Below, in pieces: positions 8,827 through 59,148 of a stretch of DNA of 64,000 nucleotides. Numbering within the stretch: position 1 is the first letter of the stretch; every line of letters starts with the position of its first letter. The notes beneath the pieces were generated by a model that saw only the letters and a list, made by a program, of their open reading frames with translations, was not told the DNA's origin and made no database searches. The position numbers and the translations under genes were made by a program. Source of the stretch: Nostoc sp. FACHB-152 (lineage in GTDB: Bacteria > Cyanobacteriota > Cyanobacteriia > Cyanobacteriales > Nostocaceae); NCBI RefSeq assembly GCF_014697475.1, contig NZ_JACJRV010000014.1, forward strand, positions 62,001 to 126,000. Reading direction: 5' to 3'.

Positions 8827-8940
8827 TATAGGGCTAATATTTGATTTGTGAAAAAATCAGTACATTATTACCTGCCTTCTTTGCTATTGCCTCTTGCCTG
8901 ACTACACAAGTATATTCAGTTATTCAACGGATTCCTATAT
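8827..8940 (+). repeat. MITE-like element, full copy upstream of the giant kinase gene
   Basis: About 114 bases. The left end is TATAGGGCTAATATTTGATTT, then AAAAAATCAGTA, an interior with CTATTGCC-type heptads, and the right end GACTACACAAGTAT...ATTCCTATAT. It aligns along its whole length with 33661-33776 and 53086-53210. The ends form imperfect inverted repeats. The terminal TATAT provides the AT of the ATG start codon of the following gene (8939). Confidence 0.75.
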
Positions 8941-11900
8941 GAATATTAATATTGCAGGTTACAAACTCATCGAAGTCCTCTATGACGGTGCTACTACCTG
9001 TGTGTATCGTGCCTTAAGAGACTCAGATAAAACCTCAGTAATTATTAAAGCTCTGAAATCTGAGTACCCAACTATAGAACAAGTATTTAAATTACGACAT
9101 GAATATACAATACTACAAAATTTAGACATAGAAGGGATTGTGAAACCCCTGTCTTTGGATAATTACCAAAATGGTCTAGCGTTAATTTCGTCAGACTTTA
9201 AAGGAGAAACTCTTAAGAATTTTCTTAGTAGTAAAAATTTAACAACTAACATTTTTCTACATATTGCTATTCAATTAGCTTCTATCCTTGCTCAGTTACA
9301 TCAAGCTAATATTATTCACAAAGATATTAAACCTCAAAATATTTTAATTAATCCTACAATATTTAAAGTAAAAATTATTGATTTTAGTATTTCATCATGT
9401 CTAGCTCAAGAAAACCCAACTCCTAGTAATCCCAATTTATTAGAAGGTACCCTCGCCTATATGTCTCCAGAACAAACAGGGAGGATGAACCGCTCAATTG
9501 ATTACCGGACTGATTTGTACTCTTTAGGTATTACTTTTTATGAAATCTTAACAGGGCAACTACCCTTTCAATCCACTGATTTCTTAGAATTAGTTCATTG
9601 CCATATTGCTAAAACACCAGCATCACCTAAAGAAATTAATGCCAACATTCCTTCAGTAGTTTCTGAGATTATCATGAAATTATTAGCCAAAACTGCTGAA
9701 GATAGATATCAAAATGCTTTAGGACTTAAAGCAGACTTAGAAGAATGCTTACAGCAAATACAAGCAACTGGAAAAATCGAAAACTTTAGCGTCGGTCAGC
9801 TTGATTTATATAGTCAATTTATCATTCCCCAAAAACTTTATGGCCGCCAACAAGAAGTTTTTACTTTAATAGAGACATTTGAGAGAGTTAGTCTTGGTAA
9901 AACCGAGATGATGTTAGTTAGTGGATATTCTGGTATAGGTAAATCATCCTTAGTAAATGAGCTTCATAAATCTATAGTTCGCCAACGAAGTTATTTTATT
10001 TCAGGTAAATTTGATCAATTTAAACGAAATATTCCTTATGCTTCATTAATTCAAGCCTTTCAAGAATTGATTCGACAGTTATTAACAGAAACTAGTGAAC
10101 AAATAGCCGTTTGGCAAGCAAAAATTTTAGACGCTCTAGGTTCTAATGCTCAAGTTATTATTGATGTAATTCCCGAAGTCGAACAGATTATTGGGAAACA
10201 ACCAGATGTTCCTCAATTAGGCCCTACTGAATCACAAAACCGATTTAATCGCCTATTTCAAAAATTTATTCATGTATTTGCCCAAAGAGAACATCCGTTA
10301 GTAGTTTTTTTGGATGACTTACAATGGGCAGATTTAGCTTCATTAAAGTTGATTCAGTTGCTTGTGTGTGAGCCAGATATTCAATATTTATTATTGATAG
10401 GAGCCTATCGAGATAATGAAGTCGATGCAACTCATCCTTTAATGCTGACTTTAAAAGAAATTACAATATCTCGTGCAATTGTCAATAATCTTGTTCTCAA
10501 ACCTTTGCAGATTTCCCACGTTGTAGAGTTAATCAGTGATACTTTACGTGTTCAACCTGCACAATTACAGCCACTAGCTGATTTGTTATTTTATAAAACG
10601 CAAGGAAATCCCTTTTTCTTAACTCAAATTCTGAAATCGCTTTATCAAGAAAACTTACTATTTTTCAATTTTAATACCCGTGACTGGCAGTGGGATATTG
10701 AATTAATTAAACAAATTGATATTAGTGATAATGTGGTGGATTTGATGGTCAATCAAATTCAAAAACTATTACCACAAACGCAAAATATATTAAAATTGGC
10801 TGCTTGTATTGGCGACAAATTTACTCTAGAAGTCTTAAGTACTGTTAATGAAAAAACCTTGGCAGAAACAGCAGCAGATTTGTGGGAGTCTCTACAAGTA
10901 GGTTTAGTAATACCTTTGAGTAATGCTTATAAAATACCTTTGGTATTTAATTATGATTTAGCAATTTCTAACTCCAAAATTACTTATAAATTTTTGCATG
11001 ACCGGGTTCAGCAAGCTGCTTACAAACTTATTCCAGATATACAAAAAAAGCAGACTCACTTTAAAATTGGCAATTTATTACTCAACAATACCTCAGCAGC
11101 CCAACTTGAAGAAAATATCTTTGAGATTGTTAACCAACTAGATATTGGTGCGGAAATGATTACACAGCAATCTCAAAAATACGAGTTAGCAAGGCTCAAC
11201 TTGATTGCAGGGAATAAAGCTAGACTATCAAATGCCTATGAAACTGCTCAGAGATATTTAAATATAGCAATTGAACTTCTAGCGGCAGATAGTTGGGATG
11301 TTGAATATAACTTAACATTAGATATTTATGATGCTACCATTGAAGCCGAATATCTTAATGCTAATTATCAGCAAGCTACAAACTTAATTAATATTACCTT
11401 AGCCAAAGCTAAAACAACTTTAGATAAAGTTAGAGTTTATAAAAGAGCAATTAATTTTTATATTGTTACAGCAGATTTACCAACAGCAATTGATATAGCA
11501 TTGCAAACCCTGGAATTATTAGGAGTTCCGATACCAACAGATAGCGAAAGCATCAATATATATTGTGAGCAATTACATCGGGAATTAAAATTTGGACAAA
11601 ATCAAATTGCTCAACTCGCAAATTTACCATTGATTAGCGACCCTGATAAACAAGCGGCAATAGAAGTATTAAATACTATGCCAGGGCCAGTGTATATTGT
11701 CAGACCACAACTGGTAATGCCGATGATGTCAACAATGGTTAGCTTATCAGTAAAGTATGGCAATTGTGCAGCCTCAGCATTTGGCTACTGTATGTATGGT
11801 CTGTTAGTTTCTGGCGTGTTTGAAGATAATGAATCAGCTTATGAATTTGGTCAATTAGCCTTGCGAGTAGCAGATAAATTTAATGATAAAGTCATCAAAA

Positions 11901-14900
11901 CTTGTGCCATTAAAGTATATGGTAGTCATCTGCAATTCTGTAAAGAACATTTGCGCGAAGCTATAGCTAGTTTAAGATTAGCTAGCGAATTGTCTTTAGA
12001 AACTGGCAATATTGAGTTTTTAGGATACGGTAGTTCTGAGTATGGGATCTACTTATTTTTTAGTGGAGAAAATCTAGAAACAGTAGATAAAAAAGTTGCA
12101 CCTTATGTTGACCTAGTTGATCAATTTAAACAAGATTTAGGCATTAATTACATTAGATTAGCTAGACAAGTGACGCTTAATTTGCTTGGGCGGGCTACTG
12201 ATAGACTCAACTTAACAGGTGAAAGTTTCTCTGAAGATACTAACTGGCCAGTTGTTATGGCAGCTAATTGGCAAGTAGTAATATGTTGCTTTCATTTATT
12301 TAAATCAATCCTGGCTTATTTATTTAAAGATTATCAGTTAGCTTTTAAACAAGCAAACTTAGCCCAAGCAAATATTCAAGGTGTAGTTGGAATGCTGATG
12401 GATTATGAATTAAAGTTTTATCATTCTTTAATACTGTTTGCTTATTACCACCAGCTTGATGATAGTGAAAAAGAAAAGTGTATACAACAAGTAGAAACTA
12501 ATCAGAAAAGTTTGGGGTTAAAAGCCTTTCATGCAGCTTGTAATTTTGAGCATAAATATAATTTAGTAGAAGCGGAAAAAGCTAGGATAATAGGGCAACC
12601 ATTACTAGCAATGGAATATTACGATCGCGCTATAGCAGGAGCCAAAGAACAGGGATATATTCAAGAAGAAGCACTGGGCGCAGAACTAGCAGCAGAATTT
12701 TATTTCTCGCGGGGTAGAGAAAACGTTGCCAAAGATTATTTAACCCAATCTTACTATGCCTATATTCAGTGGGGAGCAACTGCCAAAGTCAGAGATTTAG
12801 AAGCAAGATATCCTCATATTTTCTCGCTCATATCTCGAACCGAAACTCATCATGTTCAGAAAAATCAAACCATCAGCGTTACAACTACTGGTACTTCTGA
12901 ATCTCTGGATATAGACACAGTTATGAAAGCGGCGCAAGTTCTCTCTGGAGAAATTGTCTTGGATAAGTTGTTGTCCAAATTGATGCAAATTGTGCTAGAA
13001 AATGCTGGAGCCGAAACAGGATTTTTGATTTTAAATAATTCAGGTAATTTAGTTATCAAAGCCACAGGAAGTATAACCACAGATAAAATAGATTTGGAGC
13101 CAGCCCCGCCGATTGCATCTAACCAGCAGCTACCATTATCATTAATTAACTATGTAGCTCATACTTGTGAAAGTATTGTATTAAACGATGCTAAAAATCG
13201 TAGTATGTTTTCTACAGACAACTATATAATTAATCACCAACCAAAATCTATTTTATGTACTCCAATTATTCATCAAAGTAAACTCATCGGTATCCTTTAT
13301 TTAGAAAATAATCTTACTACTAAAGCATTTACACCAGAGCGTTTAGAAGTTTTACAACTTTTATCATCGCAAGCAGCAATTTCAATTGAAAATGCGCGTC
13401 TTTACAATGATTTAGAAGCATATAATCAGACGCTGGAAGTCAGAGTAGAAGAAAGAACTCTGGAATTACAAGCAAAGAATTTGCAACTCCAACAGGAAAT
13501 TACAGAGCGCCAAAAAGCAGAAGAAGCCGCCGCCGCCGCCAACCGTGCTAAAAGCGAGTTTCTTGCCAGTATGAGCCATGAACTCCGCACCCCTCTAAAT
13601 GGGATTTTAGGCTATGCTCAAATTTTGAAGAAACATCAAAATCTCACAACTCCGCAAAAAAATGGTATCAACATCATTCATCAATGTGGAGAACATTTAC
13701 TAACGCTAATCAACGATATTTTAGACATTTCTAAAATTGAAGCTCGGAAAATGGAACTTTATCCTACAGAATTTTATTTTCTGGGTTTTCTCGAAAATAT
13801 TGTGCAAATCTGTCGTATTCGTGCTGAACAAAAAGGAATTATTTTAAATTATCAGCCACTTTCACCTCTGCCTAAAATTATAAAAGCTGATGAAAAACGT
13901 TTACGTCAGATTTTAATTAATCTACTCAGCAATGCTGTCAAATTTACAGAAAAAGGTACTATCAATTTTTATGTAGGGTATCATGAGGGCAAATTACGTT
14001 TTCAAGTAGAAGATACTGGAATTGGAATTGCCCAAGACCAATTAGAAGAAATATTTTTGCCTTTTAAGCAGGTAGGAGAAGATAGCCGCAAGACTGAAGG
14101 TACAGGATTAGGACTAGCAATTAGCCGTCAATTGGTTGAGATGATGGGTAGTGAAATTAAGGTAAAAAGTACTTTAGGTAAAGGCAGTATTTTTTGGTTA
14201 GATTTAGATGTAACTGAAGTTTTATCGACAATCAATAAATTTGATGAGCGTAACATTATTGGGTTTGTTGGTGAGCGCAAGAAAGTTTTAGTTGTAGATG
14301 ATAAATGGGAAAATCGTTCTGTTTTAGTAAATTTACTAGAACCTTTAGGTTTTGAAGTTATCGAAGCAATAGATGGCTTAGACTGTCTTAATAAAGCATC
14401 AGAGTTTAAGCCAGATGTAATTTTTATGGATTTGGTAATGACGAATATGGATGGCTTTGAAGCCACGCGCCGCCTGAGAATGTTACCAGAATTTCAGGAA
14501 GTAGTAATAATTGCCATATCAGCCAGCGTTTTTGATTTTGATAAAAAGCAGAGTCGAGGAGTAGGCTGTGATGATTTTCTTCCCAAACCATACCGATTTA
14601 TGGAACTTCTAGAAAAATTAAGAGTCTACTTGGGCTTGCAATGGATTTATGAAGAGATAGAAAATGAGCCAAAAGACTTAGAAAATGTTAAATTACAATC
14701 AAAAACTCAAGCTCAAGATTTGATACCTCCAGCAGCAGAAGAAATTTCAATTTTGCTCGATTTGGCAATGAGGGGTAATTTAAGAGCAATTACACAGAGA
14801 ATGGCACAATTAGAGGAGTTAGATGAAAAATTTTTGCCGTTTGCCACTTATTTACGTCAGATGGCCAAAGAGTTTAAAGGCAAACAAATCGTAGATTTTA

Positions 14901-14926
14901 TTAAAAAATATTCACAGTCTACATGA
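8939..14926 (+). CDS. Giant hybrid Ser/Thr kinase - AAA ATPase - GAF - histidine kinase - receiver protein
   Basis: A cytoplasmic signalling protein of 1995 residues, of a class common in filamentous cyanobacteria. Domains in order: a eukaryotic-type protein kinase (about 5-270) with catalytic loop HKDIKPQN (D129) and DFS in place of DFG; an AAA/STAND-like ATPase (about 295-600) with Walker [10 protein letters not shown] near 329-337 and Walker [12 protein letters not shown]; a long helical TPR-like region (about 700-1300); GAF (about 1325-1480); a coiled coil; HisKA with H1547 in [15 protein letters not shown]; HATPase ([26 protein letters not shown]); a receiver with phospho-acceptor D1831; and a ~110-residue helical tail. 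ATG 8939 was chosen because family members start just before the IAGYKLIE strand and the upstream TTG (8894) lies inside a repeat element. It is followed 68 bases later by another hybrid kinase, probably the same signalling locus. The input signal is unknown. Confidence 0.93.
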
Positions 14927-46200: not shown

Positions 46201-46383
46201 AAGAATTTCCAAACGGGTATTCCTGGGTTCACTGGCTTTAGCCCCAGTCCATTAGATTTGATTGAAAATCGCAATAATGGATATATCTATGTAGCCCAGC
46301 TTGATCAAAATACTGGCACTGGTAAGATTACGCTTTTACGCCCATTTAATTTGGAAAACACAACAGGCGATCGCGCTGACTAA
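43243..46383 (+). CDS. Secreted mosaic protein: HYDIN-like, Ig-like and beta-propeller domains
   Basis: 1046 residues. A signal peptide is followed by an ASPM-SPD-2-HYDIN-like beta domain (about 60-175: SLTNPPSNGVHNIATLRVKN, FEITGLPITGPW). Next is an uncharacterised region with LREILEVFGYTTVI and HTRADGQTLLPRRAG. A low-complexity Thr/Asp/Asn linker with DNA tandem repeats (44542-44697) follows, then an SbsA/Big_5-type Ig-like domain (about 490-590: NVSPKISIAADLNLPNG...FTTG), and a C-terminal six-bladed-propeller-like part related to PQQ-dependent sugar dehydrogenases (GIRNGYDMVWHSNGQLYVPTNGG; SPLDLIENRNNGYIYVAQ). Its substrate is unknown; it probably acts outside the cell or in the envelope. 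The start is supported by AAGGAG 7 bases upstream. The 3' end overlaps the convergent STAND gene by 38 bases. Confidence 0.82.
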   Translation: MSQRHFKSWTHTLFFALPYIGLSQLVPLQNSAIAVSLEPTLLNSIKKTHTSEFSGKLAQNLNVEIENLDGVPFSDRLVFSRIGSLTNPPSNGVHNIATLRVKNTGTEPFEITGLPITGPWQLATSISLPITIAPGGQLNIPVQFQATSGDIHNGTLTIESNNVQQPSKVVQLSGFWQSESENGQEPNLREILEVFGYTTVITKPGQRLNRQGLLEAVGDEVLSPYWQRADISQPVKVRQLAAYHNQGPTATLYWHNKGSNTLTSIFTHTRADGQTLLPRRAGALAFPAEGTFVPDTTIFGFNLDGEWSDPTKNNQAVDRRNGCLGLCGHHVRVWPVKDRQGLIIPNTWLMTMDYAGINYDYNDNVYLVSNIKPEQSLPGIVQTNNFQLTSSFVPTASNKSTKITPLVKMSGTKLAINAETDTTTQSNDTVTATDEVMSAIDEAVSAFDEVVSATDENNTTTQTNDTVTATDENNTTTQTNTLATATNNRPSIRSTNPTDNQTNVSPKISIAADLNLPNGGIAVNSLSASTVKLIDLSDNTQVEATLNTSAGGDVIVLVPIKPLKSNTQYQLKITEGVQDTNGSAFLPYSISFTTGTLENINSQISFEQIYQLNVPDKPYTTVVIGPDNQLYAATLEGEILRFPISDTGDLGTPQIISSLQTANGGNRSIIGMHFDPSSKDASNLILWVTNNDSLYKIGKAPDWTGKITRLSGPNLETVQDYVVGLPRSVRDHLTNSIEFKANEPDILYVLQGSNTSTGAADTTWGNRPERLLSGAVLRVDLSKIISPPLDVKTEDGGTYNPLAPGALVTIFASGIRNGYDMVWHSNGQLYVPTNGGAAGGNAPSTPIPLPDSCQNRIDKATNGAYTSPSVLDINNIGTQRDYLFRVVQGGYYGHPNPQRCEWVLNGGNPTENADPSQVNEYPIGTLPDRNWKGSAFDFGEHFSPNGTIEYRSNVFSGKLQGKLLVVRYSAGKDIIVLTPGGPNLDIKNFQTGIPGFTGFSPSPLDLIENRNNGYIYVAQLDQNTGTGKITLLRPFNLENTTGDRAD
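44542..44697 (+). repeat. Tandem repeats in the linker of the mosaic protein
   Basis: Three 21-bp units (44542-44604) encode DEVMSAI, DEAVSAF and DEVVSAT. Two 48-bp units follow (44602-44649, 44650-44697), encoding TDENNTTTQTNDTVTA and TDENNTTTQTNTLATA. Both unit lengths are multiples of three, so copy number can vary without a frameshift. Confidence 0.85.
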
Positions 46384-49300
46384 CTTTAGGGTTAGTCTTG
46401 AAATAGTCATGTAGCAAATTACAACCCCGCTCTAGTAAATTCTCTAGTTTGAGATCTACTAAAGGACGGAAAATCACCATACCTTTACCACTGCCTGCTG
46501 CCAAAGTATTGCCATCCGGGCTAAAAGTAACACTAGTTAATTCTTTTTTATCGCCTTTGAGCGCAATCAATAATGTTCCATCGCTGTTCCATAGCTTGAG
46601 TTTATCGTCGCTGGCAGCTACTATCATGCTGCCAGTAGGACTAAAACTCACGCTAATAAAACTGTCGCCATCTCCAGGCAAATCATTAAGTAATTGACCG
46701 TCGCGGCTCCAAAGTTTCACAGTGCTATCAATACTAGCTGAAGCTAAAGTTTTACCATCTGGCGACCAAGCCACGCCATTTACCGGACGGCTGTGACGGT
46801 TTAAGGTATGCAGCAGTTTGCCGTCCCGACTCCAAATAATTACTGTTTTATCGTCGCTAGCCGAGGCTAAAAATTTCCCATCAGGGCTAAAATCTACCCA
46901 ATTCACAGCATCTTTATGCCCTTTTAAGATGTTGAGTTGTTTACCATTCCGATTCCAAAGCCTTACTGTTGCATCCTTACTAGCCGAGGCGATGATTTCA
47001 CCATCACCAGACCATGCTACACCCAAGACTGTATCTCCATGTCCTGCTAAAGTATGCAGCAATTTTCCGTCACGATGCCAAAGCTTGACGGTTTTATCTT
47101 TACTGGCTGAGGCAAGGTTTTGACCATCAGGTGACCAAGCTACACCCCAAACTTGACCCTGATGACCTTTGAAGGTGCTTAAAAGTTGCCCTTTACTATT
47201 CAACAGCCTGACAGTGGAATCACGACTGGCTGCGGCTATAGTTCGACCATCAGGGCTAAAACTGATACTTGTAATCCAGTCTTGTTGGTTGCTGTTGGGT
47301 TTACGTAACAACACATCATCCCAGTGCCAAAGTTTCACAGTTTTGTCACGACCAGCCGAAATGAGAGTCCGACCGTCAGAACTAAAACCCACACTATTGA
47401 CCCAATTATTATGTCCCCTGAGTGTTCCTAGCAGTAAACCTTGAGGACTCCACAACTTGATTGTTTCATCAAGGCTAGCTGAGGCGATTGTATGACCATC
47501 GGGACTCAAACTCACACTAGTGATTTCTGCTGTATGTCCTGACAAAGTTTTGAGCAGCTGACCTTGCAGATTCCATAGTTTAATTGTCTTATCTAAGCTT
47601 CCCGAAACAATAGTTTGACCATCACTAGACCAAGCTATACTTTTGACCGCATCATCATGTGCTTGCCAGCTTTTGAGTAATTTACCTTCTCGGTTCCATA
47701 ACTTGATGCTGGCATCAGCACCAGCCGAGGCAATCATTTTACTGTCTGGCGACCAAGCTACGCTCAAAACTGCACGTTTATGTCCGTTTAAGGTACGGAG
47801 TAATTTTCCGTCACGACTCCAAAATTTTACTGTTTTATCGGTACTGGCTGAGGCTAGAATTTGTCCATCGTGGCTCAAACTTACAGAATTAACGCTAGCC
47901 TGATGACCTCTAAGAGTGTTGAGTAGTTTACCTTCCCGGCTCCATAATCTTACGGTCTTGTCTTGACTACCAGAGGCAATCATTTGACCATCCTGGCTCA
48001 AACTTACACTATTGACTATATCCTCATGTCCCTGAAGATTTCTGATAAAAGTACCATCAGCACGCCAGAGGTTAATTGTATTATCGGCACTACCTGAGAC
48101 AATTAAAGAGCGATCGCTTTGCCAACGTCCAGGGCTACTACTCAATACTGCACTATTAACACCACCCATATGTCTATCTAGGCTGTTAAACTCTTTCACT
48201 CCCGCAACTGCTTGATACAACGCCGTCTGCACTTGCTGTTTTGTTGAGGAGTCTACCCAAAGTGCTTGTTGTAATTTCCTGCCGGCTTTTATCGCTTCTT
48301 TTAAAGCATCAATACCTTTTTGGGAAGCAAATAGAGCCTCACTGGAGACACTCAGGGTTTTAATTTCACTATCTAAAACGCTGATGATGGATACTGATAA
48401 GCCAAAGATAGCGAGAAATGCCACCGATAAGGCCACTTTCAGCGAACGATTTAATCGGGTTTCGTTGATTCGTTGCTTTTCTTTAGCTTCTGCTAGTTGT
48501 GCTGTTAATTCTTTTTCTTTTAGCTCGGATCTTAATTGCTCAATTTCCAACTGGCTTAATTCTTCGCGCTTGCGTAATTCCCGCAATTCTGCCACTAAAT
48601 CTAACCCTTGTTGCGGCTGTGCTTCTGTCAGTCTGGCTTGTTGCTTTTTTTGCCGCAGTTCGATCTTCAGGCGTTCAATTTCAGATTGACTTTGATCTAC
48701 TTTGCGACGTAACTGATTGAGTTTGGCTTGTAAACTTGATTCTTGTTCTTGCAAGTAACGAATCAAGTCAACTAAGTAATCATGAATTAATTGATATCGC
48801 TCTGGCACATCAGGAAATAGCACTACTAACCCAGAGCTTACTAAAATATCTAAAACTAATTCTAATTTACTCGCATCTTCTAATTCGGCAATTTCTGTAG
48901 CTAATTCGGCACGAGTTTTAAAAGGTCTTTGATTAGTTTCATCTGTGAGTAAATATAAAACAAGTAAAGCCGCCCGTTCATTTTCTGGGCCGCAGTCCTT
49001 GATTAATTCCTTGATATAACGCTCAATCAGTTTGTTTGGTCGATATGGTTGATATTGCTCTAAAGTATTAATTCTTTCATCTTGTAGTTGTGCGCCCACA
49101 ACTTGCAATTCAATTGGTCTAACTTCTCCTAGATCTGCTGATAAATCTTCTACCAAAGCATCAATTAAAGCTCCTTCTAGGTGCATCTGAGAACGTTCTG
49201 TTAACTTTTGAATGATGACTTTGGCATATTCTGGCGAGAAATTATTTAATTGATAACGAATATTTTTATCCAGGATATTATAATCGATTGCTTCTAAGGC

Positions 49301-51460
49301 AGACAGATTTTTAAATTCTAACAAGCGATGTAAATAATCTTCTCGTAAGGAAAAGACTATTTTCACGAAAGAAACATTCAAACAATCGCGTAAAAATATG
49401 TCAAATTCTTGTCTTTGGGCTGTTGTATTACAAGTAAAGAAAAACTCTTCAAATTGGTCAAAAATTAAAACTGTAATTAAATGATTATTCGCATTTTCGG
49501 TTAATTTGGCTAAAATACCAGCAGTAGTTATGGGTGTGTTGAGGTCAGATATGGCTACTGCGATCGCTTCTTCTTTCTTAATTTGAGACATTGCCTCAGT
49601 TAAGTCTTTACCTAATTCCCTCACCCAATCTGTATAAACTTGCACAACTACAGGCACGGCAATTTGATCGCCAACGGTACGATTTTGTAATGCTGGTACT
49701 AATCCGGCACTAACGGTAGAACTTTTACCTACGCCTGACGGGCCGTGAATCACCATCAGTTTTTGGTCAGCGCGGCTAATTTTGCCAATTAAGTTATTAA
49801 TATCACCTTCTCTTCCAGAAGCCGCAATTTCTAAGGCGACGCTGCTAGTACCAAAAGGAGACATCAAGGCGGGGTTAGTTACTTGTCTTTGGGGTTGCAA
49901 GCGTCCCGCCCCAATGAAAGCCCGAAAACCATATTGCTGCTCAACAGAACGCCGTTTCTGTCTGATAGTGTAAGCTTCGAGATATCGCCCAGCCGCAAAG
50001 TAAAGCGATCGCAATATCCGTAACAAGCGAATATAACGATGGGCATTATATTGATGGGTGCTGTGTTCTAAAGCATAAGGCAGTTCTTTTGCAGCTTTAT
50101 CTAAATATTCATTCGCAACTTCATAGTCGCCTAAACTTTGCTGTGCTTCTGCTAAAACTAAATAATAAATTTGCGCCAGTAATAAGGGAAATAAATATTG
50201 ATGGGAAGCACCATGTTTTTGGGCTTCTCCTAATTTCAATAAAGATACATGAGCTAAAATACTCGCTTGCATCCACCGCGACTGCTGCAAAGCAACTTGT
50301 GCCAAAAAACCATAGTCGCAAGCTAATTGAATATGACTACCATAAATTTGATGCAACTCTAAAGATTTTTGCGCTACAGTCTGCAATTCTGACCACTCTT
50401 GTAGATGTTCTAAAACCTCAGCCAGTTGACCAATAAATTCGGCAACTATATCGGGTCGTTGCGCCAACTGTAAAACATTACATGATTGCTCTAAATAAGA
50501 TTTAGCTGTGTCCCAATAGCGGCGATTTTCAGTTTGATTCTGCTCGGCAATGCGGGAATAACATAACCCTAAATAATAGAGTAATACTCCTTGGCGAACT
50601 AAAGGCGAAGTATGATTACTGAGGATATCTAATTCTGTATTCCAGGTATTAGGAATTGTCTGGGGATAATTTTCTGATTCATTCTGTAATGCTAATTTTT
50701 GCCATACAGCCAAGCTTTGTTGAAAATGAGTTAAGGCTGGTTGAATGCGATCGCTAACATAATTATCTAAACCAAAGACAAATTCTAAACTAGCGTATAG
50801 TTCTGACTCTAAGGTAATGCCACGATGTCGCAACTCTTTAATTGCATAGTGGAGTTCATCGTTATGTTGCCCTACTTGCTCTAAAGTAAAGTAATTCTCT
50901 GTATCTTGAATATCTCGATGCTGTGCAGTTTGTATAGGTAGAACTGTGGCGAATAACGAGTCGGTTTCTTGGCGCAAAAATTCTTGCAATTGCGCCGTCG
51001 TCATTTCAAAGCGAATTGGTGTCGCCGCCCAACTAGCAAAATCTGGGGCTAAACGTACTACTTTCTGCAATATCTCATCATTCACCCAAAAAATCATCGG
51101 GAATGAGTGACTTTTGGGAAATTCATCACGGATTTGATTTATGGAGCTAAGTAAGTCATCAATGCGCTCTACTGACTCTAAACCTAAAATGTTTAATGCG
51201 GCTGGTTGTTGCTCATCGGTGCGAATTTGCACGTGAATAGCACTATAAAGACTTCTCGCATTGCGAGGTACAACTAGTTTTAATATCGAGCCTAGTGAAA
51301 AAGTCTCTAATTGTTGCAATATTTGCTCTTGCAAAACATGATAGTTGCAACACACTAAAACTACAGAGAATTGTCCACGTGATAGGGAAATTGCTCTTCC
51401 TAAACTCCGTAGCGACCTTTCATTGGCAGATTTTATGTCTGCTTGTGTGTGTTCAACCAT
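46346..51460 (-). CDS. STAND ATPase with TPR region, membrane helix and 14 WD40 repeats
   Basis: 1704 residues. The N-terminal ~180 residues (FSVVLVCCNYHVLQEQ...; FPMIFWVNDE) look like a P-loop-type fold without a Walker A motif. TPR-like helices follow to about 540. The STAND-type ATPase (nSTAND1-like) has Walker A GPSGVGKSS near 573-581 and Walker B VLIFDQFEEFFF near 665. After a helical lid (about 750-890) and a charged coiled coil (about 905-1000) comes one membrane helix (VALSVAFLAIFGLSVSII, about 1005-1028). Fourteen WD40 repeats (about 1085-1680) make two seven-bladed propellers, many units nearly identical (LASASKDKTVKLW). Such proteins act as ligand-triggered switches, in some cases in anti-phage defence; the role here is inferred. 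The start overlaps the upstream ATPase gene by 28 bases, so the two are coupled. Confidence 0.9.
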   Translation of the reverse strand: MVEHTQADIKSANERSLRSLGRAISLSRGQFSVVLVCCNYHVLQEQILQQLETFSLGSILKLVVPRNARSLYSAIHVQIRTDEQQPAALNILGLESVERIDDLLSSINQIRDEFPKSHSFPMIFWVNDEILQKVVRLAPDFASWAATPIRFEMTTAQLQEFLRQETDSLFATVLPIQTAQHRDIQDTENYFTLEQVGQHNDELHYAIKELRHRGITLESELYASLEFVFGLDNYVSDRIQPALTHFQQSLAVWQKLALQNESENYPQTIPNTWNTELDILSNHTSPLVRQGVLLYYLGLCYSRIAEQNQTENRRYWDTAKSYLEQSCNVLQLAQRPDIVAEFIGQLAEVLEHLQEWSELQTVAQKSLELHQIYGSHIQLACDYGFLAQVALQQSRWMQASILAHVSLLKLGEAQKHGASHQYLFPLLLAQIYYLVLAEAQQSLGDYEVANEYLDKAAKELPYALEHSTHQYNAHRYIRLLRILRSLYFAAGRYLEAYTIRQKRRSVEQQYGFRAFIGAGRLQPQRQVTNPALMSPFGTSSVALEIAASGREGDINNLIGKISRADQKLMVIHGPSGVGKSSTVSAGLVPALQNRTVGDQIAVPVVVQVYTDWVRELGKDLTEAMSQIKKEEAIAVAISDLNTPITTAGILAKLTENANNHLITVLIFDQFEEFFFTCNTTAQRQEFDIFLRDCLNVSFVKIVFSLREDYLHRLLEFKNLSALEAIDYNILDKNIRYQLNNFSPEYAKVIIQKLTERSQMHLEGALIDALVEDLSADLGEVRPIELQVVGAQLQDERINTLEQYQPYRPNKLIERYIKELIKDCGPENERAALLVLYLLTDETNQRPFKTRAELATEIAELEDASKLELVLDILVSSGLVVLFPDVPERYQLIHDYLVDLIRYLQEQESSLQAKLNQLRRKVDQSQSEIERLKIELRQKKQQARLTEAQPQQGLDLVAELRELRKREELSQLEIEQLRSELKEKELTAQLAEAKEKQRINETRLNRSLKVALSVAFLAIFGLSVSIISVLDSEIKTLSVSSEALFASQKGIDALKEAIKAGRKLQQALWVDSSTKQQVQTALYQAVAGVKEFNSLDRHMGGVNSAVLSSSPGRWQSDRSLIVSGSADNTINLWRADGTFIRNLQGHEDIVNSVSLSQDGQMIASGSQDKTVRLWSREGKLLNTLRGHQASVNSVSLSHDGQILASASTDKTVKFWSRDGKLLRTLNGHKRAVLSVAWSPDSKMIASAGADASIKLWNREGKLLKSWQAHDDAVKSIAWSSDGQTIVSGSLDKTIKLWNLQGQLLKTLSGHTAEITSVSLSPDGHTIASASLDETIKLWSPQGLLLGTLRGHNNWVNSVGFSSDGRTLISAGRDKTVKLWHWDDVLLRKPNSNQQDWITSISFSPDGRTIAAASRDSTVRLLNSKGQLLSTFKGHQGQVWGVAWSPDGQNLASASKDKTVKLWHRDGKLLHTLAGHGDTVLGVAWSGDGEIIASASKDATVRLWNRNGKQLNILKGHKDAVNWVDFSPDGKFLASASDDKTVIIWSRDGKLLHTLNRHSRPVNGVAWSPDGKTLASASIDSTVKLWSRDGQLLNDLPGDGDSFISVSFSPTGSMIVAASDDKLKLWNSDGTLLIALKGDKKELTSVTFSPDGNTLAAGSGKGMVIFRPLVDLKLENLLERGCNLLHDYFKTNPKVSQRDRLLCFPN

Positions 51461-52767
51461 GATTTAAATTTTTGTGTCTCTGCTATAACTGGGTTGACAG
51501 CAAACCAAGTTCCTCGATGATCGCGGTATTCAAAGACAAACAAGCTGCGTAAGAGGGCGTGATAACCAATATCACCACCAACTCTTTGCTGTTCTACCAC
51601 CTGAAAAATTAGTTCCCATTCATGGGCATCGATAGCGTGAGCGCGGTAGTCTCTTTGGCGTTGAATCACTAGCTCTACGCAGTCACGCTCAAAAGGTGGA
51701 TCTTGTTCTCTGAGACAGTCGAACAGTAGCCCTAGTAAATCGCGTACATGACCACCGCTAATCAAGCACAATCGATCTAAAGTTTCTAGGTGATCAAATA
51801 TCTCTGTAATTAAGCCTAACCGATCGCTCGGCTCGATGTCAGGAAAGGCTCTAGCTAACACCATTTGCCGCATCAGTGTTAACCCTTGGTTAAATATTTC
51901 CCCAGAACGCAGGCGCACGGGTATCATTGGTAAAACTTTTGGGGCGACACCCCCACCTAATCGATGCTGAAGTTCGGCACTATCGTTAGAGAAAATTAAA
52001 GATAAGGGAATAGTGTAAACTAAATGACACGCTAATTTGCGTAACTGTTCACCACGTTCAATAAACAAGTATTCTGGCAGCGATCGCCCAGATGGTAAAG
52101 AACGAATTGCCACCCGATCTAAGTTATCAACAATAACTACTAAACCCTTTTTCCCTTGAGTCTTAAGTTCTTTGGTTGCACGTTCTAGCAGTTCTTTATT
52201 GATCGACTGCAAAATATTTTGGGTACGTGGTTCGAGGTAGTCTCTTAATCGCCGTCGCAGTTGCGGACTTTCTTTAGTTTTGGCGGTGATTTTAGCTATC
52301 CCTACAGATAATTCCGCCTCCACTCCCAAGTCGATTGGTGTTTGCAAAAAATCGATAACTTCTGTAAACAATTTTGTGAAGTAGCTAGGCTTGAGCCGGA
52401 TTTTTCTGGCTTCTAGACTTTCGCTGACTTGTCCGGCGATCGCTAGTAAAATATCTGTGATATCTACGTCAGCCATTTCTAAGACATGGGTAGACTCAAA
52501 ATAAACTACATGAAATTGTTGCTCTTCTAACTCCGCTTTCAAGCGCAATAATTCTGTAGATTTCCCACAACCTAGATGTCCTGTAAACAACTGACAAGTG
52601 GGGTTATCAGGCGAAATTCGCGTAATTGTACGTAGCAAAGCCTCAATAATTTTGCCACCCCGCACCGCAGCAAAATCGATATAGTAGCGGCGATCGCTTG
52701 CATCCCCCATCACTAGCGGTCTACTAGGATTACAAGCCTGATAAAATCTTTCTAAATCTAAATGCAT
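51433..52767 (-). CDS. P-loop ATPase coupled to the STAND-WD40 gene
   Basis: 444 residues. Walker A is GHLGCGKSTELL (63-74) and Walker B is VVIVDNLDRV (210-219). An alpha-helical C-terminal part contains ISGGHVRDLLGLLFDCL (sensor/lid-like) and a terminal winged-helix-like portion. The pattern recalls AAA/KAP-type or STAND-like ATPases; no precise family was recognised. The gene is first in a two-gene operon: its last 28 bases overlap the start of the 1704-residue STAND-WD40 gene. No nuclease, protease, TIR or pore effector domain is visible in either protein. It starts at ATG 52767; the preceding 680 bases carry no gene and should hold the operon promoter. Confidence 0.85.
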   Translation of the reverse strand: MHLDLERFYQACNPSRPLVMGDASDRRYYIDFAAVRGGKIIEALLRTITRISPDNPTCQLFTGHLGCGKSTELLRLKAELEEQQFHVVYFESTHVLEMADVDITDILLAIAGQVSESLEARKIRLKPSYFTKLFTEVIDFLQTPIDLGVEAELSVGIAKITAKTKESPQLRRRLRDYLEPRTQNILQSINKELLERATKELKTQGKKGLVVIVDNLDRVAIRSLPSGRSLPEYLFIERGEQLRKLACHLVYTIPLSLIFSNDSAELQHRLGGGVAPKVLPMIPVRLRSGEIFNQGLTLMRQMVLARAFPDIEPSDRLGLITEIFDHLETLDRLCLISGGHVRDLLGLLFDCLREQDPPFERDCVELVIQRQRDYRAHAIDAHEWELIFQVVEQQRVGGDIGYHALLRSLFVFEYRDHRGTWFAVNPVIAETQKFKSWLNTHKQT

Positions 52768-54321: not shown

Positions 54322-55137
54322 ATGTTGCCTAATAGCCTACTCATGACTCCTTCACAAGAAGCCGACACTATTATTAATCCTGATATTGACCTAGAAGGAC
54401 AAGGCAATTCTGAAACTGATCCTCTTGATGAGTTGCCTGGTGAAGTCGAAATGTCTCTTTTCGACCACCTAGAAGAGTTACGACAGCGAATTTTTTACTC
54501 ATTGATAGCTGTAGTCATATTTGTTATTGGCTGTTTTCTAGCTGTCAAGCCACTTGTTCAATTACTCGAAGTGCCAGCCCAAGGGGTAAAATTTCTTCAG
54601 CTTGCTCCTGGCGAGTATTTCTTTGTCTCTATTAAAGTCGCTGGCTACAGTGGACTGGTACTTTCTAGTCCTTTTCTCCTTTATCAAATTATCCAGTTTG
54701 TTCTGCCAGGATTGACACGCCGTGAACGCCGCTTACTGGGGCCGATAGTTTTAGGTTCGAGTGTGTTATTTGTTGGTGGGTTAGTATTTGCCTATTCAGT
54801 TCTTATCCCCGCAGCTTTAAAATTTTTCATTAGTTATGGTGCAGATGTAGTAGAACAACTGTGGTCAATTGATAAGTACTTTGAATTTGTACTGCTGCTT
54901 TTATTTAGCACTGGTTTAGCATTTCAAATTCCGATAATTCAATTGTTGCTGGGGAATTTGGGAATTGTCTCGTCAGACAGAATGCTGTCTGGTTGGCGAT
55001 ATGTGATTATGGCAGCAGTAATTTTGGGTGCTGTTCTCACACCTTCTACTGACCCTCTTACTCAAGGTTTGTTAGCAGGTGCAGTTTTAGGGCTTTATAT
55101 AGGTGGGATTGGTTTAGTTAAACTCACAGGCAAATGA
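54322..55137 (+). CDS. tatC: Sec-independent protein translocase TatC
   Basis: A 271-residue polytopic membrane protein, the signal-peptide receptor of the twin-arginine translocase. The family start [18 protein letters not shown] is preceded by a ~45-residue acidic extension common in cyanobacteria. Six hydrophobic segments are visible, with the conserved [31 protein letters not shown] and [11 protein letters not shown] regions. The Rieske protein encoded 0.9 kb downstream is itself a Tat substrate in cyanobacteria and chloroplasts, so the neighbourhood is functionally coherent. ATG 54343 is an alternative start. No tatA/tatB is in the window. Confidence 0.95.
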
Positions 55138-56039: not shown

Positions 56040-56579
56040 ATGGCTCAATTTTCGGAATCAGCAGACGTGCCAGATATGGGCCGTCGTCAATTCATGAACC
56101 TGCTCACTTTTGGGACTGTCACTGGAGTAGCTCTGGGTGCATTGTATCCCGTTGTTAACTACTTTATTCCTCCTGCTACCGGTGGTGCAGGTGGAGGTAC
56201 AACCGCAAAAGACAGTCTAGGCAACGATGTGAGCGTTAGCCAATTTTTAGATAGCCATAACGTAGGCGATCGCACCCTCGTTCAAGGATTGAAGGGCGAC
56301 CCGACCTACATTGTGGTTGAAAGCAAAGAAGCGATTACCGATTACGGGATCAACGCTGTTTGCACTCACTTGGGTTGTGTTGTTCCTTGGAACGCTGCGG
56401 AAAACAAATTTAAATGTCCTTGCCACGGTTCTCAATACGACGCAACTGGTAAAGTAGTTCGAGGCCCTGCACCACGTTCTTTGGCTTTAAGCCACGCCAA
56501 AACCGAAAACGACAGGATTGTTTTGACCCCCTGGACTGAAACCGACTTCCGCACCGGCGAAGAACCTTGGTGGGCTTAA
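56040..56579 (+). CDS. petC: Cytochrome b6f Rieske iron-sulfur protein
   Basis: 179 residues. It transfers electrons from plastoquinol to cytochrome f in the b6f complex of the thylakoid membrane. A twin-arginine-like GRRQFMNLL followed by one membrane helix makes up the N-terminus. The [2Fe-2S] ligands are C108 and H110 (CTHLGC) and C126-x-C128-H129 (CPCHGSQ); C113 and C128 belong to the conserved box pair, and the Pro loop GPAPRSLAL is intact. Length and N-terminus match the cyanobacterial family. It is followed by petA after a 119-base spacer that is largely heptad repeat, so petC-petA should be co-transcribed as in other cyanobacteria. Confidence 0.97.
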
Positions 56580-56698: not shown

Positions 56699-57700
56699 AT
56701 GAGAAAAGCCTTTACAACAGCGAGCTTAACTCGCAGTGCTAGAGCAATTACTAGAACATTGCTCATAGCGATCGCTACAGTAACATTCTTCTTTACTAGC
56801 GATATTGCTCTGCCTCAAAGTGCTGCTGCTTATCCCTTCTGGGCGCAGCAAACCTATCCAGAAACTCCCCGCGAACCGACAGGTAGAATCGTTTGCGCTA
56901 ACTGTCACCTAGCAGCCAAGCCAACCGAAGTAGAAGTACCTCAATCAGTGCTGCCAGACACAGTATTTAAAGCTGTGGTCAAAATTCCCTACGATACCAG
57001 CGTGCAGCAAGTTGGTGCAGATGGTTCTAAAGTTGGCTTGAACGTCGGCGCAGTGTTAATGCTACCCGAAGGCTTCAAACTTGCTCCTGAAGACCGCATT
57101 CCTGAAGAACTGAAAGAAGAAGTCGGCGATACCTACTTCCAAACCTACAAAGAAGGTTCAGACAACGTTGTCATTGTTGGCCCCTTACCCGGCGAACAAT
57201 ATCAAGAAATTGTCTTCCCAGTTCTGTCTCCTAACCCTGGAACTGACAAAAATATTCACTTCGGTAAATATGCAGTTCACGTAGGCGGTAACAGAGGACG
57301 CGGACAAGTTTATCCTACTGGCGAAAAGAGCAACAACACAGTTTACAACGCTTCCGCTACTGGCACCATTAGCAAAATCTCCAAAGAAGAAGATGGTGAT
57401 GGTAACGTTAAATATTCAGTGAATATCACAACAGAATCGGGTGATGTCGTTACTGATAAAATTCCTCTAGGCCCAGAACTGATTGTTTCTGAAGGACAAG
57501 CAGTAAAATCTGGTGACGCTTTGACCAATAACCCCAACGTTGGCGGTTTCGGTCAACAAGACACAGAAATTGTACTGCAAGATGCCAGCAGAGTTGGTTG
57601 GTTAATTGCCTTTATCGCGCTGGTCATGTTGGCTCAAGTAATGCTAGTTCTCAAGAAGAAACAGGTTGAAAAAGTTCAAGCTGCTGAAATGAATTTCTAA
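56699..57700 (+). CDS. petA: Cytochrome f
   Basis: 333 residues, the c-type cytochrome of the b6f complex that passes electrons to plastocyanin or cytochrome c6. A signal peptide ends at SAAA, so the mature protein starts with Tyr45 (YPFWAQQ), whose amino group is the axial haem ligand. Haem attachment is CANCH (C66, C69, H70). The large and small lumenal domains ([19 protein letters not shown]) and a C-terminal membrane anchor ([19 protein letters not shown]) are complete. A strong terminator follows at 57726. Confidence 0.97.
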
Positions 57701-58209: not shown

Positions 58210-59148
58210 ATGGATACATTCTCTTCAGAGAATTTACAAAACTTGATATCAGTTCAAATTTTAAAAGGTCATTCTAATAGCATTCTTTCTCTTGCCTTTA
58301 GTTCTGACGGAAAGATGCTAGCAAGTGCGAGTCAGGATAAAACCATCAAAATTTGGAATCTTTTAACTAATAAAGAGTCTCATACTCTGGAGGGCATTGA
58401 AAAGTCCTCATGGTTTGGAAGTGTGAATTCGGTAGCTTTCAGCCCAAATAATAAAATCTTGGCAAGTGGAAGTGACGATAAAACTATTAAGTTATGGGAT
58501 TTATCCACTGCTAAAGAAATTTTGACTTTTAAAGGGCATGAAGAGAAAGTTTACTCTGTGGCTTTCAGCCCAGATAGTAAAATTTTAGCTAGTGGAAGTC
58601 AAGATAAAACTATTAAGTTATGGTCAATAGAAACAGGTAAAGAAATAGCTACTTTTCATGGTTTATCAAGTGATGTTATATCTGTGGTTTTTAGCCCAGA
58701 TGGTAAGATTTTAGCTGGGGCAACTAAGGATAAAATTATTAAAATTTGGTATTTAACTAAACAAAAAGTTCAAACTATCAATACAGATTCGGATTGGTTT
58801 TCCGATATTAAATCTATAGCTTACAGCCCAGATGGGAACATTTTAGCTAGTTCTAGCCAGAACAAAAAGATTAAGTTATGGAATATAGCAACTGGCAAAG
58901 AAATCTGTTCACTTACAGGACATAATGATGAAGTTTGTTCGGTGGCTTTTAGTCCTAATGGGCAAATATTAGCTAGTGGTAGTAAGGATAAGACTGTTAA
59001 ATTATGGCAAGTAAAAACTGGTAAAGAGATTCGTACTTATCAAGGTTTTAACGAAGCAGTTTACGCTGTAAGTTTTAGCTCTGACGGCAAGAAAATAGCT
59101 GCTGGTGGTGGAGATAAAAAAATTATGCTTTATCCTTCTGGATATTAA
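58210..59148 (+). CDS. WD40 repeat protein, single seven-bladed propeller
   Basis: A soluble protein of 312 residues made almost entirely of seven WD40 repeats. Each repeat has the GH...SV.FSPDGK.LAS.S.DKTIKLW pattern: the blades end with KTIKIW, KTIKLW, KTIKLW, KIIKIW, KKIKLW, KTVKLW and KKIMLY. It has no enzymatic, membrane or signal segment. It is probably a scaffold for protein contacts. It is unrelated in position to the 14-repeat STAND protein, but its blades are of the same cyanobacterial type. Confidence 0.9.
   Translation: MDTFSSENLQNLISVQILKGHSNSILSLAFSSDGKMLASASQDKTIKIWNLLTNKESHTLEGIEKSSWFGSVNSVAFSPNNKILASGSDDKTIKLWDLSTAKEILTFKGHEEKVYSVAFSPDSKILASGSQDKTIKLWSIETGKEIATFHGLSSDVISVVFSPDGKILAGATKDKIIKIWYLTKQKVQTINTDSDWFSDIKSIAYSPDGNILASSSQNKKIKLWNIATGKEICSLTGHNDEVCSVAFSPNGQILASGSKDKTVKLWQVKTGKEIRTYQGFNEAVYAVSFSSDGKKIAAGGGDKKIMLYPSGY

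Follow-up and report, generated by a model that had tools for sequence, protein, structure and literature searches.

Two overlapping genes that encode different ATPases, in an arrangement for which no matching named bacterial system was found, raise the question of whether they work as one device and, if so, what that device is for. We examined such a locus in Nostoc sp. FACHB-152, within a stretch of 64,000 nucleotides (the window) from a genome of 8.6 Mb (G000). Gene 1 (51433..52767, minus strand) encodes 444 residues and gene 2 (46346..51460, minus strand) encodes 1704 residues, and the two open reading frames (ORFs) overlap by 28 bases, just as an earlier note on this sequence had reported; the closest relatives of gene 1 that bear names (95–96%) belong to Nostoc. 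We find that gene 1 has a constant genetic partner in the N-terminal domain of gene 2, which is probably a pseudo-ATPase, and we propose with moderate confidence that both genes, conserved together in filamentous cyanobacteria, make up an AAA+/STAND switch that is anchored in the membrane and has an ATPase and a pseudo-ATPase at its core.

An ATPase and its probable pseudo-ATPase partner

Gene 1 encodes a KAP-like P-loop ATPase of the AAA+/STAND clade. It scores above the Pfam cut-offs of 20 for KAP_NTPase (35.5 bits) and 27 for AAA_22 (28.8 bits), and its structure model, whose secondary structure points to a winged-helix-like C-terminal part, matches ORC/Cdc6, TnsC and CED-4; by sequence, no solved structure was a convincing relative (best E 0.44). 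The Walker A region GHLGCGKST (residues 63–71; 52555..52581, minus strand) was placed by alignment and family pattern: G63, G66, G68, K69, S70 and T71 are invariant among 13 aligned sequences, and the Walker A pattern occurs in 113 of 113 members of the ATPase family. Our best explanation takes gene 1 to be an active ATPase, at the same moderate confidence as the whole two-gene switch. Elsewhere in the family, two proteins (L138, 6242–8332; L185, 3585–5609) carry an N-terminal extension of about 240–250 residues for which Pfam gave no family at E 0.01.

Residues 1–185 of gene 2 (50906..51460, minus strand), which the earlier note had missed, form a separate domain, here called the N-domain. 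Pfam assigns it to no family at E 0.5; its fold is predicted to be AAA+ by structure prediction and Foldseek, and the Walker A motif is found in 0 of 106 N-domains, which together suggest that it is probably a pseudo-ATPase. Sequence homology between the N-domain and gene 1 was considered and rejected by hhalign, and the agreement between them is limited to the predicted folds.

Linkage and one-to-one pairing across genomes

Members of the ATPase family are constantly accompanied by the N-domain, whatever domains come after it. In 36 genomes searched, 30 of which carry the ATPase, at least 106 of the 111 ATPase matches above 900 bases are directly followed by an N-domain, on the same strand and between 0.2 kb of overlap and 2.5 kb downstream, with a median gap of 71 bp between aligned ends. 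The pair is also present in 18 of 18 fetched ortholog loci, and is therefore not a product of chance; among them, the N-domain lies in another frame in L038 (8308–13393, genome G005, where it and the remainder of gene 2 occupy two overlapping frames, which may reflect a frame error, a broken gene or a natural split), and the ORF of L048 is without WD40 repeats. The coupling of two different ATPases that the earlier note had proposed, naming rare adjacency of the genes as a refutation of its reading, is borne out. After the N-domain follow TPR-STAND-WD40, TPR-STAND, TPR alone or nothing, the first being the commonest arrangement among the fetched loci, a set weighted to close relatives. In operons of the window type, the order of N-domain, TPR, nSTAND1, transmembrane (TM) segment and WD40 region (13–15 blades) is nearly constant.

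At nearly every locus, ATPases and N-domains occur in equal numbers. Counted by script over loci with distinct ATPase sequences, 119 loci have one ATPase and one N-domain (1:1), 3 are 2:2, 11 are 1:0 and 2 are 1:2, and the tally also includes two loci of orphan N-domains that were fetched deliberately. One of the 119, L185, is a false 1:1 locus: the N-domain counted there is part of another pair, which is cut off. In 122 single-pair loci, the similarity profiles of true pairs have a median rho of 0.89, against 0.40 for re-paired ones. The 2:2 loci consist of L048 (AAA-TPR-ATPase plus ATPase, then N-N-TPR-STAND) and of L182 and L184 (ATPase and ATPase-TIR, then N-N-TPR-STAND). Both ATPases fit best with the N-domain of the same rank in L182 (rho 0.50 vs. 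0.39 and 0.78 vs. 0.60) and in L184 (0.40 vs. 0.30 and 0.63 vs. 0.39), and the second ATPase of L048 fits N-domain 2 (0.94); judged from the sequences, the co-pairing result for the 2:2 loci is mixed, as discussed below.

Architecture of the predicted scaffold and sensor protein

The remainder of gene 2, a predicted scaffold/sensor protein, was analyzed from its translation, and all its parts lie on the minus strand. Residues 190–530 (49871..50893) form a TPR-like helical region; the TPR assignment of the earlier note agrees with the conservation of this region in homologues and falls short of the Pfam threshold (TPR_12, 26.2 bits, cut-off 30.1). The STAND ATPase that had also been recognized there is an nSTAND1 NTPase (PF20703, 109 bits, cut-off 27.1) at residues 549–912 (48725..49816), with an intact Walker A motif that is kept in 91 of 91 relatives. 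By sequence, no solved structure was a convincing relative of the front part of gene 2 (best E 0.75). A charged, coil-like linker (residues 936–1003; 48452..48655), delineated by eye, leads to a predicted single TM helix (residues about 1005–1029; 48374..48448). This and the topology were called from Kyte-Doolittle hydropathy and counts of lysine and arginine (K/R). The hydrophobic segment lies between the STAND and WD40 modules and peaks at 2.47 (residues 1011–1029), consistent with the one membrane helix reported before, and a second, weaker hydrophobic stretch lies within the STAND module (residues 863–886). A TM-like segment is found in 79 of 91 relatives, with the N-terminal side richer in K/R in 67 of these 79 and poorer in 1. 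Because of this N-terminal excess, the positive-inside rule would place the propellers outside, probably across the membrane.

The C-terminal WD40 region (46433..48175) scores 468 bits over 13 Pfam stretches. Fourteen blade registers fit the window protein, the last two being poorly conserved, in line with the number given earlier; relatives mostly have 14 blades, and intact orthologs 13–15. Its best solved match is 2ymu (728 bits over four stretches). By analogy with the WRAP proteins (PMC9218822, available in part), and consistent with the blade register, the 14 blades are predicted to fold as two 7-bladed propellers.

Genomic position, selection and distribution

The pair is flanked by tatC (54322..55137, plus strand; Pfam, NCBIfam and synteny), a divergently transcribed neighbour that marks a conserved position, and by a gene for a Big_5-domain protein (Pfam); petA (cytochrome f; 56699..57700, plus strand; Pfam and synteny) is a member of the same conserved neighbourhood. 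The ortholog lies beside tatC in 9 of 18 loci of a first set and in 18 of 27 loci of a second, drawn from named genomes, 10 of these 18 having petA too; the second set required at least 3.5 kb upstream, so that 6 of 33 loci were dropped as short, and the two sets share some genomes. Within the genus, the tatC neighbourhood is seen in just two of ten relatives (L034 and L042), indicating that the place changed there. At E 1e-10, at least one member of the family is found in 65 of the 292 cyanobacteria sampled, including 31 of 32 from the taxonomic family of the window, and the number of matches per genome ranges from 0 to 9. The ortholog (at least 75% identity) is present in 24 of 36 genomes of the taxonomic family, with 11 of 11 in the genus, and missing in 12. 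A housekeeping position in all strains, which the earlier note had named as evidence against a sensing or defence system, is thus approached by the tatC neighbourhood and contradicted by the absence of the ortholog from some genomes.

Selection was estimated as whole-region mean ratios of nonsynonymous to synonymous substitution rates (dN/dS) over ten genus members, excluding L038 with its split frame. The ATPase is the most constrained (0.049), followed by the TPR (0.067), STAND (0.076), coil plus TM (0.083) and N-domain (0.088) regions, and the WD40 region evolves fastest (0.126). Thirteen window blades compared with each other are 22–68% identical, and orthologous blades of the window and L042 are 73–93% identical. 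A hypervariable WD40 region was rejected at whole-region level by these two measures; low dN/dS together with diverged blades that keep their orthology argues against a hypervariable immune sensor in the window copy. Likewise, the tatC position and purifying selection, WD40 included, indicate that the window copy is not a fast-evolving mobile defence gene. A phage or viral origin was also rejected, as no match was found in viral contigs or phage records.

In a Pfam scan of 15 other ORFs in the window, all appeared to be housekeeping-like or signalling-like genes. Two further proteins of the window are of separate interest, a 312-aa protein with seven WD40 repeats directly after petA (58210–59148), of which L042 has just a shorter piece, and a 2010-aa hybrid (8894–14926) with Ser/Thr kinase, AAA_16, GAF, histidine kinase and receiver domains.

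Conflict links among relatives

Links to biological conflict come from relatives alone, and not from the window copy. Relatives matched nine plasmid records, one of them acidobacterial, and on a conjugative Acaryochloris plasmid the pair lies between two tyrosine recombinases. In L182 and L184, the extra ATPase carries a C-terminal TIR domain (116 and 110 bits); in a search of 292 cyanobacterial genomes for more such fusions, with at most three candidates scored per genome, G079, the starting one, alone covers both parts among the matches listed. On a plasmid of Nostoc sp. C057 (L183, 1976–7767), the ATPase domain forms the end of a SAV_2336-related protein next to genes for MoxR and for a VMAP protein (VMAP-C, 117 bits), and the operon continues with a 164-aa protein bearing hydrophobic stretches. 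From its place, the SAV_2336-related fusion may be the vWA component, although Pfam lists no vWA there. With at most two candidates scored per genome, no second fusion of this type among the matches listed spans the whole, G056 covering residues 1–629 of 974; stand-alone members of the same ATPase subfamily have an N-domain downstream in five of five examined.

The earlier note had suggested a conflict or signalling role and proposed to look for homologues in defence islands. The defence-island idea is not supported for the window copy: in a coarse PADLOC scan (E 1e-10), no recurrent defence gene emerged among neighbours. These were ORFs of 150–900 aa that contain neither ATPase nor N-domain; a script picked 70 of them at random around 13 ortholog loci and another 70 around 25 loci of paralogs or other kinds. 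Neighbours in ortholog loci matched eight PADLOC models, a TPR model by four proteins and the others by one each. Those in paralog or other loci matched 47, of which the 25 listed were matched by one protein each; many were PD-T4-6 models, apparently from one kinase-like protein.

Proposed mechanism and alternative explanations

In the switch that we propose, gene 1 would be docked by the N-domain to give an AAA+ assembly of active and inactive subunits, comparable to clamp loaders or ORC, and gene 2 would take its state from the ATP state of gene 1. A signal would reach the propellers, which probably lie on the other side of the membrane, and nSTAND1 would relay it by nucleotide-driven oligomerization. 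In the common form, the output could come from the membrane segment or from a partner that acts in trans; in rare relatives, it could come from the TIR domain fused to an extra ATPase. Docking is a prediction from folds, linkage and one-to-one numbers. In its general form, the prediction is that a live ATPase recognizes a dead AAA+ docking tag, one tag per ATPase, and that throughout filamentous cyanobacteria the pair mounts a STAND-WD40 membrane sensor, a TPR scaffold or a TIR effector; we give this generalization an even chance. The odds are also about even that the pair serves conflict or cell-death surveillance in filaments, which we rate slightly likelier than plain envelope signalling.

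Several observations weigh against this proposal. At the level of folds, Foldseek gave no match to the N-domain at E 0.001, and a few of its 50 rows are helicase domains rather than AAA+, while hhalign found no sequence relation between the N-domain and gene 1 (probability 0.6%). The pairing has exceptions too. The ATPase is alone at 11 loci, among which L135, L149 and L194 reach the contig end shortly after it, L183 is the VMAP-operon fusion and L179 has a weak N-domain below the length cut-off; the two 1:2 loci (L134 and L162) were scored so where an insert splits one N-domain. Since L182 and L184 seem to represent one homologous operon type, the 2:2 loci amount to about two independent events; moreover, N-domain 1 of L182 is closer to ATPase 2 (0.60) than to ATPase 1 (0.50), and the extra ATPase of L048 has no preference (rho 0.44 and 0.48). 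Forty of 148 N-domains were listed without an ATPase upstream, and a short orphan N-domain ORF (172–224 aa) is found in 11 of 11 genus genomes, with a stop within the match in G007; thus the domain can occur alone. The window contains no effector enzyme, and a conserved position under purifying selection fits signalling at least as well as defence.

This last point leads to the most serious alternative, that the pair monitors the cell's own state (export, membrane or filament) at the envelope or thylakoid with no role against invaders, which we consider a real possibility that falls somewhat short of even odds. The location by tatC, the presence of the ortholog in two-thirds of the family genomes and of some family member in nearly all genomes of the other family sample, the low dN/dS throughout, the steady blade number of intact orthologs and the housekeeping- or signalling-like genes around the pair all speak for it; the TIR fusions, the VMAP-operon fusion, the plasmid paralogs, the variable number of matches per genome and the 12 genomes in which the ortholog is missing do not. 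An immune receptor of the classical NLR type, with a WD40 sensor that diversifies as in fungal HET genes or WRAP, would explain STAND with 14 blades, the strong 2ymu match and the fastest evolution in the WD40 region, yet it is improbable given that the blades of the window differ from each other and resemble their orthologs, that blade number is nearly constant, and that the WD40 dN/dS, as a region mean, is low. That the two genes are functionally unrelated neighbours is refuted for practical purposes by their linkage in at least 106 of 111 cases, against about 0.1 case expected by chance from simple arithmetic.

If the pairing holds, it would bring a testable logic to a widespread class of large WD40/TPR/STAND proteins in cyanobacteria, of which several are annotated as hypothetical: the ATPase/pseudo-ATPase core would be constant and the modules around it interchangeable. 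Bacteria would then have a counterpart to AAA+ assemblies that mix active and inactive subunits, such as the clamp loader and ORC, set in an architecture like that of the apoptosome and found in organisms of simple multicellularity. Part of this repertoire would be stable and kept in position rather than a mobile defence gene. Should the docking-tag prediction be true, the dead domains that occur as orphans at other places in the genome would act as regulators in trans. The window genome has two orphans without an ATPase upstream (L188, 6017–6682; L189, 5851–6387) that are possible regulators of this kind; by eye, their neighbours were not informative.

Comparison with known systems

The earlier note knew of no named system that fits, and none was found in PADLOC or in the literature searched, with subscription papers mostly outside the search. 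The best PADLOC match of gene 1 is the candidate model PDC-S20 (28.4 bits); gene 2 matches HEAT-ARM_XIII at 138.5 bits, where the WD40 repeats give the best stretch, and LmuB at 14 bits, and neither gene has a strong match to a named system. No description of a KAP-like ATPase paired with a pseudo-AAA+ domain was found in the text searched.

With KAP NTPases (PF07693), gene 1 shares a Pfam score above the cut-off and a Walker B motif, DNLDR, similar to the DDLDR of KAP NTPases. In KAP NTPases, TM segments are inserted into the P-loop domain. Unlike them, the gene 1 model also matches ORC/Cdc6, TnsC and CED-4, and no KAP system with an N-domain-type partner was seen in the literature searched. 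Gene 2 resembles the STAND class in combining nSTAND1 with a WD40 repeat sensor. The pair resembles animal and plant immune and cell-death switches; unlike the Apaf-1/CED-4 apoptosome and plant NLRs, it comprises two genes, a predicted pseudo-ATPase docking domain and a TM helix. STAND targets diversified by diversity-generating retroelements have also been described (PMC10907252, available in part).

Inactive STAND modules are a core part of the ternary MoxR-vWA systems, described together with iSTAND and VMAP systems in the available part of Kaur et al. (2020; PMC7159879), and a gene 1 relative is fused into the VMAP-MoxR operon of L183. In contrast, the window pair is flanked by tatC and the Big_5 gene rather than by genes for MoxR or vWA, in a scan that excluded a 179-aa ORF at 56040 and small ORFs. 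The WRAP operon of Nostoc punctiforme (Npun_R6612), as far as the available text describes it (PMC9218822), places a STAND protein whose C-terminal region has 14 WD40 blades in two 7-bladed propellers beside a TIR-STAND protein. It is likewise cyanobacterial and encodes a pair of STAND ATPases. It differs in that its partner has an N-terminal TIR domain, whereas gene 1 has none and TIR is C-terminal on the extra ATPases of L182 and L184; that its blades are near-identical and recently amplified, in contrast to the diverged blades of the window; and that a pseudo-AAA+ domain is present in the window pair.

Another close likeness is to the two-gene nSTAND2 systems, in which one STAND is eroded, described along with nSTAND1 by Kaur et al. 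(2021; PMC8195603, available in part), who proposed a toroidal hetero-multimer. Both comprise two genes, one AAA+/STAND module being active and the other degenerate (here Walker A in 113/113 vs. 0/106, on predicted folds), and in both the degenerate module is fused to variable modules. A GT4 or HEPN effector is, in the available text, "most commonly" found on the inactive nSTAND2 partner; Pfam lists neither for residues 1–185 and 191–1103 of gene 2 (E 0.5). Unlike nSTAND2, no match to PF20702 was obtained for gene 1 (E 0.01) or for the same two parts of gene 2 (E 0.5), and the dead domain of the window precedes TPR and a second, nSTAND1 module with WD40 repeats. On our best reading, the pair is a variant of the known two-gene STAND systems, built on an ATPase/pseudo-ATPase pair.
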